Positions 3,907 through 10,658 of a stretch of 32,541 nucleotides of DNA are shown one piece after another. The stretch lies in IMG/VR virus record IMGVR_UViG_3300028883_000101, positions 1 to 32,541 of that record; one strand, 5' to 3'. This stretch comes from a virus. The notes beneath the pieces were generated by a model. The model was not told the DNA's origin. It worked only from the letters and a program-made list of their open reading frames with translations, and ran no database searches. The stretch's first letter is position 1. Every line of letters starts with the position of its first letter. The translations under genes and the position numbers were made by a program.

Positions 3907-4674
3907 ATGATGGAACTAGGAAATACACCGCAGAACCTTCCCGAGGAAAGGCCTAACTCTACTAAACCCCTAATTAAGCGGGTTAATGCTTATGAGGTTT
4001 ATTTGGTAGATGATCATGGCCGCCATATTCGTAGGATATGCGGTGTCCAACGTAATGCGATGCCTGAGGGGTACGTTTGTACCAATGCGGCAGGTCAAGG
4101 GACCGACCACCCGGGCGTAGGACCCTGCTCATTCCACAACAGAGCTATTACGAACTCACGTAATACAGGGCTTTGGTTACAGCTCAATGAACAACACGGC
4201 CTCCCGAAGAACCTTCTCGAACTTTATCAGAATGCAGAGATTATCGAGGAACGTCACCTTACTACGGTAGATGACGACATCAAGACTCTCTATGTCCTGC
4301 AGCAATACCTATTGACGAAGTTTGCAGATGAAGAAGGGAACGACCGGGGGGTTATTCTACCCAACGACACCATTGAATTACTCCTTAAGCTCACAGACAA
4401 AATTGTAAAAACCAAAGAGGTTCGAGCTAAGTTAAAGAAGGAAACCTCACTTGACGTCTCAACGGTTAAAGCACTAGTCACTCAAATCTTTAAGATTATC
4501 ATGACCAATGTAAATGAGAAGGCTGCCAAGATAGTCCTCTCTGAAATCATGGAGAGTGTAGTTGCTCCGTTTAAGACACAGGGCAGAATCATCGGGGGTG
4601 AACTCAACCTTGAGAATGTGGTTGAAGAAGCTGATATCGTTGAGACTGCAGAACATAGCGAGGATTCTAGATGA
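3907..4674 (+). CDS. Putative small terminase subunit with Cys3-His zinc motif
   Basis: About 255 residues. The N-terminal part has C45, C58, C74 and H77 in the context RRICGV..., YVCTNAAGQGTDHPGVGPCS and FHN. This CxnCxnCxxH pattern with a GTDHxGxGxC core occurs in many phage terminase small subunits and related DNA-binding proteins and probably holds one zinc. The rest is predicted helical (residues about 90-230), suitable for oligomerisation. Its place two genes before the terminase ATPase supports a role in recognising phage DNA and delivering it to the motor. GAGGA touches ATG 3907, so the start at 3910 is equally possible. The stop overlaps the next start (ATGA). The assignment rests on motif and context, and another zinc-binding protein cannot be excluded. 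Confidence 0.6.
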   Translation: MMELGNTPQNLPEERPNSTKPLIKRVNAYEVYLVDDHGRHIRRICGVQRNAMPEGYVCTNAAGQGTDHPGVGPCSFHNRAITNSRNTGLWLQLNEQHGLPKNLLELYQNAEIIEERHLTTVDDDIKTLYVLQQYLLTKFADEEGNDRGVILPNDTIELLLKLTDKIVKTKEVRAKLKKETSLDVSTVKALVTQIFKIIMTNVNEKAAKIVLSEIMESVVAPFKTQGRIIGGELNLENVVEEADIVETAEHSEDSR

Positions 4675-5123
4675 TACATGAGCAAGGAGAAGACATTGTG
4701 TGTAACTTAGCTGGTACTGTTCTATTAGTTGATGACGAAACTACCGTCATCCAAGCGCTGAAACTCCATATTGAAAAAGCCTTCCCCAATGTTACTGTGA
4801 TCACAGCTAACAGCTTTGAGCAGGGAAAAAATCGTTTAATGGAGCGGGAGTACTCCCTTGGTATTATCGATTATAACCTGAGTCGAGACCACAAAGGCTT
4901 GGAACTTATCGATTTCAATGTCCATAAAACACCTTTAGTCCTCCTTACGGGTTTTGAGCCAGTGGTGGAAAAAGTGAAAGAAAAAGGATTACCCATAGAG
5001 GTATGGCTTAAGCCCATGGAGAATGGGACATTGATTCACCAACTGGAGAAAGCATTACAATTTCAGTCAATGTACGATTCACTTCGGAGTGTACAAACTA
5101 AACTGAATCAATCTATTGTCTAG
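4671..5123 (+). CDS. Stand-alone CheY-like response-regulator receiver domain
   Basis: A 150-residue single-domain receiver. All hallmark residues are present: the acidic pocket D21-D22 in VLLVDDE, the phospho-acceptor D67 in GIIDYNL, the switch Thr T93 in PLVLLTG, and K114 in VWLKP. Residues about 15-130 cover the whole fold; the last 20 are a short helical tail with no DNA-binding or enzymatic output domain. In bacteria such domains accept phosphate from histidine kinases and act by protein contact. Here the gene overlaps the upstream small-terminase candidate (ATGA) and is followed after 11 bases by a membrane-protein gene, so it is expressed with the packaging genes. It may tap or divert a host kinase or control a phage step; both are inference. 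The complete active site argues against decay. Confidence 0.88.
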   Translation: MIHEQGEDIVCNLAGTVLLVDDETTVIQALKLHIEKAFPNVTVITANSFEQGKNRLMEREYSLGIIDYNLSRDHKGLELIDFNVHKTPLVLLTGFEPVVEKVKEKGLPIEVWLKPMENGTLIHQLEKALQFQSMYDSLRSVQTKLNQSIV

Positions 5124-5568: not shown

Positions 5569-6516
5569 ATGGATCCTAACGGTATTAGCTCGGATGACTT
5601 ACTCATCCGAGAAATCGAGCGTCAAGTAAAAGACTACCAGAATAAAACCGGTGGAGCTCTTTACGACTGGGGGGAGAAACAGATCGGAGAATTTAGAGAT
5701 ATCCCTTTGGAGACCCTTCTCAACGATCCCTACTTCTTAGGGCTTCAAGGACAAATGTATGAGGGGGTGTACCAGGATCTTGTTGATTTGTGGGAAGAGC
5801 GGGAGAAACGCACTATTAACCTGGCAGTATTCTTGGAAGCAATTGGTGCGGGTAAGTCTTTCAAATCCTCTGTAATTTTGTGGTTGTTGTGGTATGAGCT
5901 CAGTATGTATGAGAACCCCCAACGTCACTTCGACCTGGTTGATAATTCAGTCATTGCTGTTATGCTGATGAGTCGGTCTGAAACTCAGGCTAAGCGTGTT
6001 GTATTCACCTATTGTTGGGACCGGTTTCAGTGCGGGTTCAATAACGACTATTTCCCGCCTAACCCTCGACTGTCCCGGGAGATCAGAATTGAACGTAATA
6101 ACACTTGTATCTACGCTGGTACTTCTTCTGCTCTTTCTGCTTTGGGATATAACGTCTATGCTGCTGTCATTGATGAGGCGAATTTTCTCGAAGTTACTGA
6201 GGATTCTAAGAAGTCGGGTCAAGATATTTATGATGCGGGTGAGGAAATGTTCAATGCGGTCATGAACCGCATGACCTCACGATTCATGAAACGGGGTCAC
6301 ATTCCCGGGATGGTGGTCTTGATCAGTTCTCCCTTATACCCCGACTCATTTGTAGAGCGTAAGCGGGATGAGATCATTGCGGTAGGGGCCGATGAATTAA
6401 ATGCTTTCTTCCGTTCTCGTAGCCTTTGGGAAGCGAAGGGACCTAAGTACTTTGATATGAGTAAATATTTCGTAGTGGATACTGACACTCTTGAGATTAA
6501 GAAGGAAGTAGCATGA
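5569..6516 (+). CDS. Large terminase, ATPase half (split gene)
   Basis: A 315-residue motor domain that would drive DNA into the prohead. Motifs in order: Walker A-like AIGAGKSF (91-98), Walker B AAVIDEAN (198-205, D202 and catalytic E203), coupling motif LISSP (251-255), and the SLWEAKGPKYF segment typical of the end of the ATPase domain. The protein stops after KKEVA. No RNase-H-like nuclease domain follows, although large terminases are usually single chains of about 450-600 residues. The missing nuclease is encoded at 7459-8469 in the same frame. The stop overlaps the exonuclease start (ATGA). The ATPase motifs are intact, so this looks like a functional split rather than a broken gene. 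Confidence 0.88.
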   Translation: MDPNGISSDDLLIREIERQVKDYQNKTGGALYDWGEKQIGEFRDIPLETLLNDPYFLGLQGQMYEGVYQDLVDLWEEREKRTINLAVFLEAIGAGKSFKSSVILWLLWYELSMYENPQRHFDLVDNSVIAVMLMSRSETQAKRVVFTYCWDRFQCGFNNDYFPPNPRLSREIRIERNNTCIYAGTSSALSALGYNVYAAVIDEANFLEVTEDSKKSGQDIYDAGEEMFNAVMNRMTSRFMKRGHIPGMVVLISSPLYPDSFVERKRDEIIAVGADELNAFFRSRSLWEAKGPKYFDMSKYFVVDTDTLEIKKEVA

Positions 6517-6995
6517 TCTCTTTCGACTTGGAAACCACGGGTCTCAGTCACCGCAGGGACAAAATCATAGAGGTAGGCATGATCAAGATTGGGAAGACTT
6601 GGTCAGACTTGACTGAATTCCATTCTCTGGTGAATCCTTGCATCAAGGTTGCTTCCACTCGTCTTAGGGAGTTTGGGCATACTCAGGCTGAGCTTGATGC
6701 TTCTCCTACAATTCAAGGGTTAAAGCCTCAAATACTCGAGTTTATGAAAAACCAGCGTATTATTGGTTATAATATAGCGTTTGATAAGCGTTTTATACTC
6801 CACGCCGGATCCGAATTTAATTGTTTCGAATATGTAGATATGTTAAATTACATCAGAGGTTTAGGATATGATTTGCCTAATTATAGACTCACCACAGTTG
6901 CAGCCTTCTTCGGGATCAAGACTCCCGATGCGCATACTGCCTTGGGTGATTCCCGGACTGTCCTTGAACTCATGAAGAAAGTAGGAACACCATGA
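6513..6995 (+). CDS. DnaQ-like DEDDh 3'-5' exonuclease
   Basis: 160 residues, essentially only the exonuclease domain. ExoI is D5/E7 in SFDLETTGL, ExoII is D91 in IGYNIAFDKRF, and ExoIII is H141/D146 in HTALGDS, which together give a complete DEDDh site for two metal ions. This family removes nucleotides from DNA or RNA 3' ends (DNA polymerase proofreading subunit, RNase T, oligoribonuclease relatives). It overlaps the terminase ATPase stop (ATGA) and the DUF5675-type gene (ATGA), and so is inserted between the two terminase halves. No polymerase is visible in the window. A role in trimming DNA ends at packaging or degrading host nucleic acid is inference. Confidence 0.88.
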   Translation: MISFDLETTGLSHRRDKIIEVGMIKIGKTWSDLTEFHSLVNPCIKVASTRLREFGHTQAELDASPTIQGLKPQILEFMKNQRIIGYNIAFDKRFILHAGSEFNCFEYVDMLNYIRGLGYDLPNYRLTTVAAFFGIKTPDAHTALGDSRTVLELMKKVGTP

Positions 6996-7465
6996 ATGTC
7001 ATTGAACTGATCCACCTCAACCAAACCAATAAGAGCTCTATCGGTGTAGTTTTCCTTAATGGGGAATTCCAAATGTTTTCCATCGAAGACCCTCAGCGGG
7101 ACACTAAAATCCCCAAGATCACAGGGATCCCCGATGGTGTTTATCCTGTAGGGTTGCGGGAAGCTGAGAGTGATATGACTATCCATTATAGGAATAAATA
7201 TCCCTGGTTTAAGTATCATATCTGGGTTAAGGAAGTTCCTGATTTTGAGTGGGTCTATTTTCATATTGGTAACTGGGTAAAAAATTCTGACGGCTGTGTC
7301 CTCTCAGGGGATGGGGTGATGAGCAATATCCCTGATGAAGGTAAGACTATCAACTCGACCGATGCTTTCAAGAGGTTCTATCAGAAACTCTATCCCCTAC
7401 TCGAGGCGGGTGAGGAGACCATCCTTATCGTCAAAACTATTGACCTCGTGGGGGCCCTTTGCTAA
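6992..7465 (+). CDS. DUF5675-type protein, possible lysis/cell-wall factor
   Basis: 157 residues. The layout matches DUF5675 as I recall it: TGIPDGVYPVGLR (44-56), then YFHIGNWVKNSDGCVLSG (89-106) with H91, N94, S99 and C102. The H-x-GN-S-x-GC arrangement recalls L,D-transpeptidase/YkuD-type cell-wall enzymes, and this family is repeatedly found in phages, sometimes near lysis genes. The activity is not established, and C102 would be the expected nucleophile. There is no signal peptide, so access to the wall would need a holin; the membrane protein at 5135 is one candidate. It overlaps the exonuclease gene upstream (ATGA), and its own stop overlaps the TTG start of the terminase nuclease. Family assignment moderately sure; function uncertain. 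Confidence 0.65.
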   Translation: MNVIELIHLNQTNKSSIGVVFLNGEFQMFSIEDPQRDTKIPKITGIPDGVYPVGLREAESDMTIHYRNKYPWFKYHIWVKEVPDFEWVYFHIGNWVKNSDGCVLSGDGVMSNIPDEGKTINSTDAFKRFYQKLYPLLEAGEETILIVKTIDLVGALC

Positions 7466-8469
7466 TAAAAGTCCCAATGGAGCTGAAACCGAACTTTCTT
7501 CGGGACCCGGAAAACTTTATCCGGGATATTGCGTGTATCTCTACGGAGGCGGTTAGCCCGTTCTTCCGTAACAGAGAGGCAATCTCCAGTGTCACTAAGA
7601 CTTGGCGACATAACCCCTTTAATGATGGAACTTTAACCTTTGATGATGAATGGCGTTGTAGTGATGAAGATAACGCTTGGCGGTATATGCACATTGACTT
7701 GGGTGTTAACCACGATGCTTGCGGGATTTCAATGTGTCACGCAGACGGGTTTGTAGACCGGGAGGTTGCAGAATACAGCGCTCACGGAACCAAGAACGTC
7801 AAGGTGAGGATGCCCAAGGCTAAATTAGACTTCATAGGCCGCATCAAGGCGGGTCCTCGGGAAGAAGTCCTTATCAGTGCTGTCCGCGAAATCATCTATG
7901 AAACCTCTCGAAGGGGGTTCTATATCGCCCTCATCACGTTTGATGGTTTTCAGTCCGTCGACTCAATCCAGATCCTTAAGTCCCACGGTTACCGAGTAGG
8001 TCGTCTCTCTATTGATCGTACTTCTACCTATTTGAAGATTACTAAGATTGATAAAAAGAAAGATGACGACGACGGCTTGAAGAGGGTATCAACTGAGGGC
8101 CAGGTTCTTGCGGCTTGGCAATCTCTCAAGGATACTCTATATGATGAGCGGCTAGACCTAGTAAAGCATGATTTCTGGGAACCTGAGGCTAGGGCTGCTG
8201 AAGCTAATCTTCGGAAGATGAAAGTCGACCACCCTCCCCGAGGCACTATCGATGTCCTACAAAGTATTGCAGGCTGCGTATACAATATGACTGTCAATGA
8301 ACGGGAATACATTGACAATGATGAGGAAATGGAAGCTGACGCCGCGGATGATTTTTATAGAGATACAGGGGCCTATATTGAAATGGATGATACCCCTGAT
8401 GAGTATTTATATCCCGAAGTGGATGAGGAAGACCAGGAGGAAGACGCATGGCTAAGGACAGACCTGTAA
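7459..8469 (+). CDS. Large terminase, nuclease half (split gene)
   Basis: 336 residues from TTG 7459, or 330 from ATG 7477. It begins LIKVPMELKPNFLRDPENF, the segment that normally follows the ATPase domain inside a full-length terminase, then an RNase-H-like nuclease: D80 in MHIDLGVNHDACG, D162 in LITFDGFQS, and D265 in RGTIDVLQSIAG as likely metal ligands. The C-terminus is very acidic. The conserved VP lies upstream of ATG 7477, which favours the TTG start; no good Shine-Dalgarno is seen, so translation is probably coupled to the DUF5675-type gene, whose TAA overlaps. Together with the product of 5569-6516 this would reconstitute a complete headful- or cos-cutting terminase. The portal gene overlaps its 3' end by 22 bases. 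Confidence 0.8.
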   Translation: MLIKVPMELKPNFLRDPENFIRDIACISTEAVSPFFRNREAISSVTKTWRHNPFNDGTLTFDDEWRCSDEDNAWRYMHIDLGVNHDACGISMCHADGFVDREVAEYSAHGTKNVKVRMPKAKLDFIGRIKAGPREEVLISAVREIIYETSRRGFYIALITFDGFQSVDSIQILKSHGYRVGRLSIDRTSTYLKITKIDKKKDDDDGLKRVSTEGQVLAAWQSLKDTLYDERLDLVKHDFWEPEARAAEANLRKMKVDHPPRGTIDVLQSIAGCVYNMTVNEREYIDNDEEMEADAADDFYRDTGAYIEMDDTPDEYLYPEVDEEDQEEDAWLRTDL

Positions 8470-10217
8470 AGCCCAAGAAAATCAGCCTTAAGGACAAGGC
8501 TCTAGAGTGGCTGGTAGGGGAGGATGCCCAAGTTCTTAATTCTGAGGAGGTAGAAGAGCTTCAGGCTAAGGCTCGGGAAGGGGGGATAAATGAGGAGCGA
8601 GGGTGGCACCGAGATAATCCCGATAGTCCTCTTCAAAAAGAGGCCCAGGTCACTGATGTGTCTGACTACTCTTACCTCTATGAAGCGGGGGTGCCTACTA
8701 CAGAAGAAGAGGCTAAGATTCGGCTGAAGAAGCCCAAGTTCTCCAAACTCCGTAAATCCTTCTTTAGAGCTTTTGAGGCTTTTACTGGTGGTTGGGTTTC
8801 TACTTGGACATTGTTCCAAAGGGGCCAGACTGTAGATGAACTTTTCATGATGCAGGATGCAGTAAACTCTAGGTATTATACTGATCCTCATGCCCGCTCT
8901 ATCCTGGACAACTGGACCAACTACACTATTGGAGGGGGTCTGAAGGTTCAGGTTGAAGTTCCCAAGGTCCAGGAGTGGATCAACGAATTCCGTAAGCGTA
9001 ACAAGATGAAGATCCGTGAGAAGCGGTTGATTAAGCGCTTTTACATCGAGGGTGAGCTCTTCATTGCCTACCATGACAAAGAGGGTAAGGTTTATGTCAG
9101 ACGAATTCGACCCAACGAGGTTGAAGACATCAAAACTGACCCCGATGATTTCGAGACTGTTAAAGAGTACAAGTGGACTTTTGAGTCCACCCTGGAGGGT
9201 TCTCAACAGGTTTATAAACGGAACTCTTGGGTTCCGGATTTCCGTCAAGCAGATTTTGACAACGGTGTAGCTCGGAAGAAAGGTACCGTCAAGGTTCCTT
9301 ATGTCCACTTCATCAAAACTACCGATGATGACCAGCTTAGAGGTCGTGTACCCCTTCAGCCAGTTATCAAGTATCTCAAGTATTACGAAGATTGGTTGAT
9401 TGACCGAATTCGCCTCAACCACGAACGAGCCAAGGTTGTTTGGATCAAAGAGATCAAGGGTAAAGGTGCAACTGCTACCACCCGTGAACGCCGAGCACCT
9501 CGGGGTGGGATGATGCTGGTAGAAAATGAGGACGTACACTACAGAATTGAAAATCCCCAGCTTCAGTCCGATGAAGCTAAAGAGGATGGACTGGCAATCC
9601 TCTACACCATCGGCGCTGGGGCTAACATTCCCATCCATATCCTTAACCAGCGATCTGATCAACAGGTCTATGCCTCTATCCGTAAAGCTGATACTCCCTT
9701 CAGCCAGTTTATCCGTAGCTGGCAAGAATTCTTTGAGGAAGAATTCGAGGACATGTATCGCTACGTGATCCAGGTTGCGGTAGCTGAAGGTAAACTCCCC
9801 AAGCGGGTGGAAGTACCCGACTATTCTATTGAGTCTGTTATCCAGGCTTATGATGTTATTAATCGTCAGGTTGCCGAGGGTATGGACTATGAAAAAGTTG
9901 TGAAAGCCGCAAAGGACGTATTGGGCCCTGAAGGTACGATCAAGAAGCGTAAAGTCTTGACCGTCGATATTCCCATGTCTCTGGAGTTTCCAGATGTCAT
10001 TAGGGAGGACCCAAAATCTCAAGCAGAAGTACTCAAGATTCACAAAGAAATCGGAATTGCTTCACTCTCTACCCTAGCTAGTAAGGCTGGGTATAATTGG
10101 CAACAGGAGTTGGCTCAGATCCTCGCTGAACGCCAACTTAATCCTGTAGAAGAACCCCCAGAGAAAGGAAGCGAGAAAAATGACACAGGAAAGCAGGATT
10201 CGGGGACTGATAATTGA
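8448..10217 (+). CDS. Portal protein
   Basis: 589 residues. The portal is the dodecameric ring at one capsid vertex through which DNA enters and leaves. Seen: DPHARSILDNWTNYTIGGGL (147-166), the usual N-terminal wing motif; a beta region (FYIEGELFIAYHDKEGKVYV); HFIKTTDDDQLRGRVPLQP; and the helical crown/stem region near DWLIDRIRLNHERAKVVW and QVYASIRKADTPFSQF. The C-terminal 40 residues are Glu/Lys/Asp-rich and disordered. The start has AGGAGG just upstream within the terminase nuclease gene. Length and position directly after the terminase fit the family. No odd residues are seen. Confidence 0.9.
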   Translation: MAKDRPVKPKKISLKDKALEWLVGEDAQVLNSEEVEELQAKAREGGINEERGWHRDNPDSPLQKEAQVTDVSDYSYLYEAGVPTTEEEAKIRLKKPKFSKLRKSFFRAFEAFTGGWVSTWTLFQRGQTVDELFMMQDAVNSRYYTDPHARSILDNWTNYTIGGGLKVQVEVPKVQEWINEFRKRNKMKIREKRLIKRFYIEGELFIAYHDKEGKVYVRRIRPNEVEDIKTDPDDFETVKEYKWTFESTLEGSQQVYKRNSWVPDFRQADFDNGVARKKGTVKVPYVHFIKTTDDDQLRGRVPLQPVIKYLKYYEDWLIDRIRLNHERAKVVWIKEIKGKGATATTRERRAPRGGMMLVENEDVHYRIENPQLQSDEAKEDGLAILYTIGAGANIPIHILNQRSDQQVYASIRKADTPFSQFIRSWQEFFEEEFEDMYRYVIQVAVAEGKLPKRVEVPDYSIESVIQAYDVINRQVAEGMDYEKVVKAAKDVLGPEGTIKKRKVLTVDIPMSLEFPDVIREDPKSQAEVLKIHKEIGIASLSTLASKAGYNWQQELAQILAERQLNPVEEPPEKGSEKNDTGKQDSGTDN

Positions 10218-10398
10218 AGAAGAACCTAGTCAAGAGGCTGCAGAGCTGGACGAGTTAGTCGAGTTGGTCCTTTTGACAGTTAGAATAAAAGGTCAGCCTC
10301 ACCCCTATACTTTGGACTTGACTAATCAACCTAAAATTCGTAATTTAATACTGTCGTATTTTTTGACTGAGGAAGAAGAATTAGGAGGATCTGACTAA
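10180..10398 (+). CDS. Small acidic hypothetical protein
   Basis: A 72-residue acidic protein starting 38 bases before the portal stop, in another frame, with AAAGGAAG about 9 bases upstream of the ATG. Its stop overlaps the next start (TAATG). It begins MTQESRIRGLIIEEEP and has one helix/strand region (DELVELVLLTVRIKG) and an acidic end. No motif is recognised. The ribosome site and coupled stop support that it is translated; function unknown. Confidence 0.6.
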   Translation: MTQESRIRGLIIEEEPSQEAAELDELVELVLLTVRIKGQPHPYTLDLTNQPKIRNLILSYFLTEEEELGGSD

Positions 10399-10658
10399 TG
10401 GCTGCCCGGAAAACTGTCCATGGTAAAAAAGGTAACAAAATGTTCGGTAAAAAGAACGGCCGCTGGAAAGGTGGGAAGTCCAAGACTTTTCGTCGCGGTG
10501 TTACCAAAGCCAAGAAGGGTGAAGTAGTTCATCACAAGGACCACAACAAAAAGAATAATAAGCCTTCTAATTTCAAGAAGATGACTCCTGCTCAGCACAA
10601 TAAGTCCCATCCCGAGAAGGGCGGAGACCACAGCGGGAAGCGACGTAAGAAGAAATAA
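10398..10658 (+). CDS. Minimal HNH endonuclease-like protein
   Basis: 86 residues, strongly basic. The core is EVVHHKDHNKKNNKPSNFKK followed by MTPAQHNKSHPEKGG: the His pair (H45/H46), the Asn/loop (N50-N54) and H67/H71 fit the beta-beta-alpha metal fold of HNH_3-type nucleases. The flanks are Lys/Arg/Gly-rich and would bind DNA. AGGAGG lies at 10383-10388, nine bases from the ATG. Small HNH proteins next to terminase and portal genes are known in phages, where some assist packaging-linked DNA cutting; others are homing endonucleases. The gene is intact, compact and coupled to its upstream neighbour, which fits a resident packaging role better than a recent homing insertion, though it could be either. 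Confidence 0.7.
   Translation: MAARKTVHGKKGNKMFGKKNGRWKGGKSKTFRRGVTKAKKGEVVHHKDHNKKNNKPSNFKKMTPAQHNKSHPEKGGDHSGKRRKKK

Follow-up and report, generated by a model that had tools for sequence, protein, structure and literature searches.

Can the large terminase subunit (TerL) of a phage exist as two separately encoded proteins? The question is raised by IMG/VR record IMGVR_UViG_3300028883_000101 (positions 1–32,541; "the window" hereafter means this whole stretch), a linear 32.5 kb virus record from an uncultivated phage, in which an initial annotation had proposed a TerL split into an ATPase and a nuclease half with two other genes in between. In a leading packaging model, a covalent hinge transmits the pull of the ATPase to the nuclease/translocation domain; splitting this hinge in T4 reportedly abolishes translocation (PMC3012670). 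The two window genes are confirmed here as halves of one TerL, and very probably belong to a clade in which this protein is naturally made as two polypeptides. A search of open-access literature turned up no account of a TerL stably encoded by two genes, which is not proof that none exists.

Two halves of one large terminase

Used separately in tblastn searches, the two halves retrieved a largely common set of ~340 phages, with matches in genes called terminase large subunit. In the records that we opened (Vibrio, Aeromonas, Rhizobium, Rhodobacter, Maribacter, Agrobacterium and Escherichia phages), both halves fall on one continuous TerL open reading frame (ORF), with a linker of 20–30 residues, part of which is absent from the window. 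Neither window half matched a terminase family in Pfam or PHROGs, and a PDB sequence search with ATPase and nuclease profiles found no terminase, so that fold comparison was used instead, with AlphaFold models of the single chains built on alignments of relatives. The ATPase model (predicted local distance difference test, pLDDT, 85) matches the TerL ATPase domains of P74-26, HK97 and T4 gp17 (Z 15–17), its alignment to T4 gp17 running from residue 81 and ending at 344–345. For the nuclease model (pLDDT 83), the top 34 structure matches are all terminases (Z up to 15.2), and the alignment with T4 gp17 covers residues 361–561. The break thus lies in the region of the ATPase/nuclease linker.

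Both halves have kept their catalytic residues, as initially noted. The ATPase bears Walker A (AIGAGKS), Walker B (VIDEAN) and motif III (SSP), with G93, G95, K96, D202, E203, S253 and S254 invariant across 21 relatives, and the acidic triad of the nuclease (D80, D162, D265) is invariant across 31. Residues 1–30 of the nuclease chain form a connector (VPxE...F..D....RD.A) conserved in split and unsplit TerLs alike (conservation 0.59–0.69 vs. a mean of 0.52). Strong purifying selection acts on both halves: the pairwise ratio of non-synonymous to synonymous substitution (dN/dS) is 0.035–0.057 for the ATPase and 0.04–0.18 for the nuclease (0.09–0.32 for the exonuclease encoded between them). The nuclease diverges faster than the ATPase in all close pairs tested, the closest pair excepted. 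The ATPase–nuclease distance correlation in a mirror-tree comparison (r 0.89) does not differ from that of one-chain TerLs and is uninformative on binding, since shared ancestry alone can produce such a value.

With the same phage TerLs matched by both, and terminase folds in both, the ORFs at 5569–6516 and 7459–8469 are confirmed as the ATPase and nuclease halves of one TerL, as had been proposed. In the window and 36 relatives, the two domains expected on one TerL polypeptide are encoded by separate ORFs.

A common break with variable contents

Relatives were reached through the window portal protein (44–48% identity), which gave three more viruses sharing this break; a scan of viral contigs with the window nuclease alone gave no match, and the portal had no tblastn match among an isolate phage collection. 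Profiles from those relatives recruited 52 and 30 loci in IMG/VR, and two more scans enlarged the set (loci and contigs carry L numbers below). Counts of split TerLs are based on the 37 non-redundant contigs in the tree, window included.

TerL is broken at the same site in all 37, and the gap between the halves ranges from −1 base to ~2.5 kb. L057 and L064 have no gap, stop and start sharing one base (TAATG) and the halves lying in different frames, while the gap of L052 holds no clear gene and those of L058, L062 and L082 hold the exonuclease only. Other gaps contain the exonuclease and a hydrolase, or both plus small genes, with extras such as a family 11 glycosyltransferase (L026) or a radical SAM protein and a possible sulfotransferase (L032); more distant branches have unrelated small genes there. 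The ATPase tails of relatives extend for tens of residues unlike the linker. Among GTDB genomes, the ATPase profile had no match and the nuclease profile two, L124 (split) and L125 (unsplit). The split TerL of L124 (4266–7026, QZJF01000008.1) is in a contig binned to candidate division WWE3, a possible lead to a host, with the proviso that binning of phage contigs is unreliable.

The two genes in the window gap had been taken for a DEDDh exonuclease and a DUF5675-type protein, and both identities are firm (Table 1). The exonuclease matches DnaQ and PolC exonuclease structures (phmmer), and all of its D-E-D-H-D residues are present in the window (FDLETTG, FDKRF, HTALGD). It occurs in 23 of the 37 split contigs and is dispensable for the split arrangement, because the other 14 lack it at this position. 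In L015, L016, L034 and L055, the catalytic H of DEDDh is replaced by Y or F, with the other acidic residues kept.

The second cargo protein matches Pfam PF18925 at 69.4 bits (gathering cut-off 26.7), its homologues have been deposited as “L,D-carboxypeptidase/transpeptidase” and “peptidoglycan hydrolase,” and relatives carry GH108 or Amidase_2 at the same position. Judged by depositors' names and position, the DUF5675 gene appears to be one of a series of exchangeable cell-wall hydrolases (GH108 in 12 of the 37 contigs, Amidase_2 in three, DUF5675 in the window alone; L055 has a weak M15 peptidase match, E 0.022, below cut-off). The three relatives found through the portal combine the exonuclease with a GH108 muramidase (L013) or Amidase_2 (L015, L016) and are without DUF5675. 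What was at first described as unrecognised cargo can thus be recast as a variable slot for an exonuclease and exchangeable hydrolases, DUF5675 apparently among them. The position of the hydrolase suggests a lysis gene carried within the packaging operon; that the exonuclease might trim cut DNA ends is a guess.

In a tree of both halves, a single branch sets all split contigs apart, and the clade uniting them with the unsplit L068 has a support of 100/100. L068, the nearest unsplit contig, sits at the base of this clade and retains the linker FIFDIDELRVIPEGEEIPKNSNGEENNTLDIPIEL, where the window has FVVDTDTLEIKKEVA and a stop on one ORF and LIKVPMEL on the other. One branch of the first tree (97/76) consists of L057, L064 and the 23 contigs with the exonuclease. 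In the simplest scenario, TerL was split once in the linker, one branch afterwards acquired the exonuclease, and a cell-wall hydrolase was acquired later still and exchanged. The split would then be older than the cargo, the reverse of an insert cutting TerL, and a two-gene insert as its cause, as initially envisaged, is not supported: gap length, frame and content vary, down to no gap at all.

Two other features that had drawn attention to the locus need qualification. The stretch at 6517–7458 is indeed 942 bases and the two halves do share a frame in the window, which is not special, the halves being in frame in 18 of the 37 split contigs and out of frame in 19. Removing the insert would restore a “seamless” TerL only approximately, the joined linker being ~10–15 residues shorter than in unsplit TerLs. 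In-frame removal of 6514–7458 was considered and rejected, as frames vary (19/37 out of frame).

A probable two-polypeptide terminase and its alternatives

The initial annotation had left open a two-protein motor or an excised insertion, and it is the former that is supported, by a common break with varying gaps, frames and contents and by the failure to find an intron or intein at the break. We put at about 85% the probability that this is a natural two-polypeptide TerL, an old split kept by a clade, with the gap as a cargo slot. The TerL gene would have been broken once, long ago, within the ATPase–nuclease linker, leaving the entire motor domain on one chain and a short connector with the entire nuclease domain on the other. 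The genes from ATPase through nuclease would form one operon, yielding separate proteins via overlapping stop and start codons: in most of the 22 loci inspected, window included, the ATPase stop and the following start have four bases (ATGA) or one (TAATG) in common, as is typical of translational coupling, and the ATGA of the window is a likely junction for termination–reinitiation. The slot would have gained the DEDDh exonuclease and then a peptidoglycan hydrolase, the latter swapped several times. Finally, we infer that the two chains meet at the portal as a non-covalent TerL, the conserved connector being the likely docking element, and that they would package DNA jointly.

Several points weigh against this reading. 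The branch parting L068 from the split contigs is weak (67/14; 60/67 when long rows are left out), which makes repeated splitting, or a re-fusion in L068, a possibility. The association of the two chains is itself inferred. Moreover, T4 gp17 divided at its linker reportedly keeps both enzyme activities and loses translocation (PMC3012670); a working split motor would need something that T4 is without, and these phages would have either a stronger interface or no need of a link.

An alternative that we consider possible, if doubtful, is that the chains work apart, the ATPase alone translocating DNA and the nuclease serving as a separate cutter at the start and end of packaging. Separate genes would allow different expression levels, the nuclease is the faster-diverging half (in the close pairs, the closest excepted), and phi29 has, in gp16, a known packaging ATPase with no part in cutting the genome. 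However, the nuclease chain keeps the interdomain connector of unsplit TerLs at above-average conservation (0.59–0.69 vs. 0.52), the correlation between the halves (r 0.89) equals that of one-chain TerLs (though shared ancestry alone can give it), and the C-domain is what moves DNA in the T4 model (PMC3012670). We also suggest, tentatively, that the nuclease may be a dissociable subunit of a motor without a covalent link, its amount or timing set separately, perhaps along with the exonuclease and lysis enzyme of the slot; if so, cutting, end trimming and lysis would be regulated apart from translocation.

A removal of 6514–7458 from the RNA, as an intron or mobile insertion, to give one full-length TerL (the “excised insertion” first envisaged) is very unlikely. 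The shared frame of the window halves would fit such an element, and self-splicing introns are present in terminase genes of other phages: group I introns split terL in Jug phages, with splicing seen in RNA (PMC12363816), and those of Bastillevirinae have been shown to splice (PMC11878797). However, Rfam gave no intron in the window at the gathering threshold, nor up to E 10 across 6300–7700, and none in 16 relatives, and the gap genes tested included no homing endonuclease. The gap is taken up by genes that overlap by 1 or 4 bases, its length, content and frame all vary, two relatives are gapless, and relatives have ATPase tails that continue over tens of residues unlike the linker.

Slightly less probable again is that the split arose in assembly, or that this TerL is decayed and non-functional and a complete copy exists elsewhere. 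The linear 32.5 kb record is part of a genome only, which leaves room for such a copy, but the same arrangement recurs in contigs of many metagenomes and in the genome-bin contig L124, dN/dS is far below 1 in both halves, and a search of the record itself gives this single nuclease copy. Least probable is a joining of the halves after translation by split-intein trans-splicing: TerL split inteins do occur near the clade at the Walker B site (L054/L055, L064, L068), but Pfam and a reading of the ends found no intein domain in the window halves and none at the break, the ATPase ends 13 residues past its last conserved strand, the nuclease opens directly with LIKVP, and the only Pfam intein domains are at the P-loop, in L013 and L015.

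For the two-polypeptide TerL, a broad natural clade with selected separate halves makes the requirement for a covalent hinge directly testable, and split motors are ones in which ATPase and nuclease could be titrated or swapped. In addition, annotation pipelines looking for a full-length TerL may overlook or shorten this marker gene in these phages.

Locus layout and comparison with known systems

The positions initially given for the ATPase, exonuclease, DUF5675 and nuclease ORFs are all borne out by the sequence (Table 1), with the LIKVP residues of the nuclease ORF starting at 7462. Relatives carry ORFs resembling the possible small subunit in the same location. Adjoining the terminase genes, window positions 4671–5123 encode a response-regulator receiver-like protein (Pfam Response_reg 2e-6, slightly below cut-off), and downstream of the portal, 10398–10658 encode a small basic protein with an HNH-like stretch (EVVHHKDHNKKNNKPSNFK).

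Table 1. Features of the split terminase locus and its neighbors in the window
Feature	Position	Strand	Basis or detail
Possible small terminase subunit (weak)	3907..4674	+	PHROG “terminase small subunit” at E 0.009 only
TerL ATPase chain, 315 aa	5569..6516	+	Stop TGA 6514–6516; C-terminal end DTDTLEIKKEVA
ATGA stop/start overlap, ATPase TGA with exonuclease ATG	6513..6516	+	Read from sequence
DEDDh (DnaQ-like) 3'-5' exonuclease, 160 aa, cargo gene 1	6513..6995	+	Pfam RNase_T 5e-19
DUF5675 protein, 157 aa, cargo gene 2	6992..7465	+	Pfam DUF5675 3e-19
TerL nuclease chain, 336 aa, TTG start	7459..8469	+	Connector VPMELKPNFLRDPENFIRDIA, then RNase-H-fold nuclease with D80, D162, D265
Portal protein, downstream gene	8448..10217	+	PHROG portal 8e-17

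Interruptions of other kinds were encountered in TerLs. In Streptococcus phage vB_SagM-GXN1 (PQ819873.1), TerL is encoded as two genes ~60 kb apart (L009 3324–4280 and L010 2982–5600), the first ending in an intein N part and the second opening with an intein C part (..FVLSNGVVSHN followed by CALMDEIEF) and bearing the nuclease and a further intein; this looks like a trans-spliced terminase in an isolated phage. The ATPase of L054/L055 (3192–4910) and L064 (1019–2816) is broken at Walker B by an apparent split intein, whose C part forms the start of a short ORF (KKSLGKQK.YD.INS.....NNGVIVHN). In L068 (3966–7886), Walker B is interrupted by an HNH-domain intein ending in a stop, followed by a separate DNA methyltransferase frame and then by an intein C part on the ORF holding the rest of TerL. 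LAGLIDADG inteins interrupt the TerL P-loop in the close relatives L013 (1742–3943) and L015 (1485–3809), each at its own position, and the window has none. Two deposited TerLs exceed 1000 residues, with an intein-like insertion at the P-loop in Rhodobacter phage RcKickapoo (L006) and an unexplained insertion of ~900 bases in Gordonia phage GordDuk1 (L005).

Compared with known systems, the window halves have the same ATPase and RNase-H-fold nuclease motifs and folds as one-chain TerLs of the T4 gp17 type (HK97, P74-26/G20c, D6E), in which the domains are hinge-joined in one polypeptide rather than divided between two genes with others in between. The closest isolates, at 25–32% identity over both halves, are the TerLs of Vibrio, Rhizobium, Rhodobacter, Gordonia, Streptomyces and Maribacter phages (e.g., Vibrio phage Vpas_PP24), which differ in being single ORFs with a longer linker. 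The nearest relative with an unsplit nuclease junction, basal to the split clade, is IMG/VR contig 3300024259_000061 (L068/L083), where the C-terminal part of the ATPase and the nuclease share one ORF with an intact linker, and the split intein and methyltransferase ORF are at Walker B instead.

Outside the one-chain terminases, Aeromonas phage Aeh1 offers a likeness in its nrdA, an essential enzyme split by a MobE insertion into two separately translated pieces that act together; its break holds a homing endonuclease, whereas none was found here and the cargo is exchangeable or absent. Herpes simplex UL15, a TerL homologue whose nuclease fold matches the window model, likewise has other genes between its two parts, the two exons flanking UL16 and UL17, but these inner genes are on the other strand and nuclear splicing yields one protein. 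The terL genes of Jug phages (PMC12363816) and Bastillevirinae (PMC11878797) also lie in pieces on the genome and are rejoined by RNA splicing, whereas here no intron was detected and gapless relatives exist. Inteins in terminase genes are known as well (PMC7156551). The pieces of these intron- or intein-bearing terminases are all rejoined before function; here, the split very probably stays.
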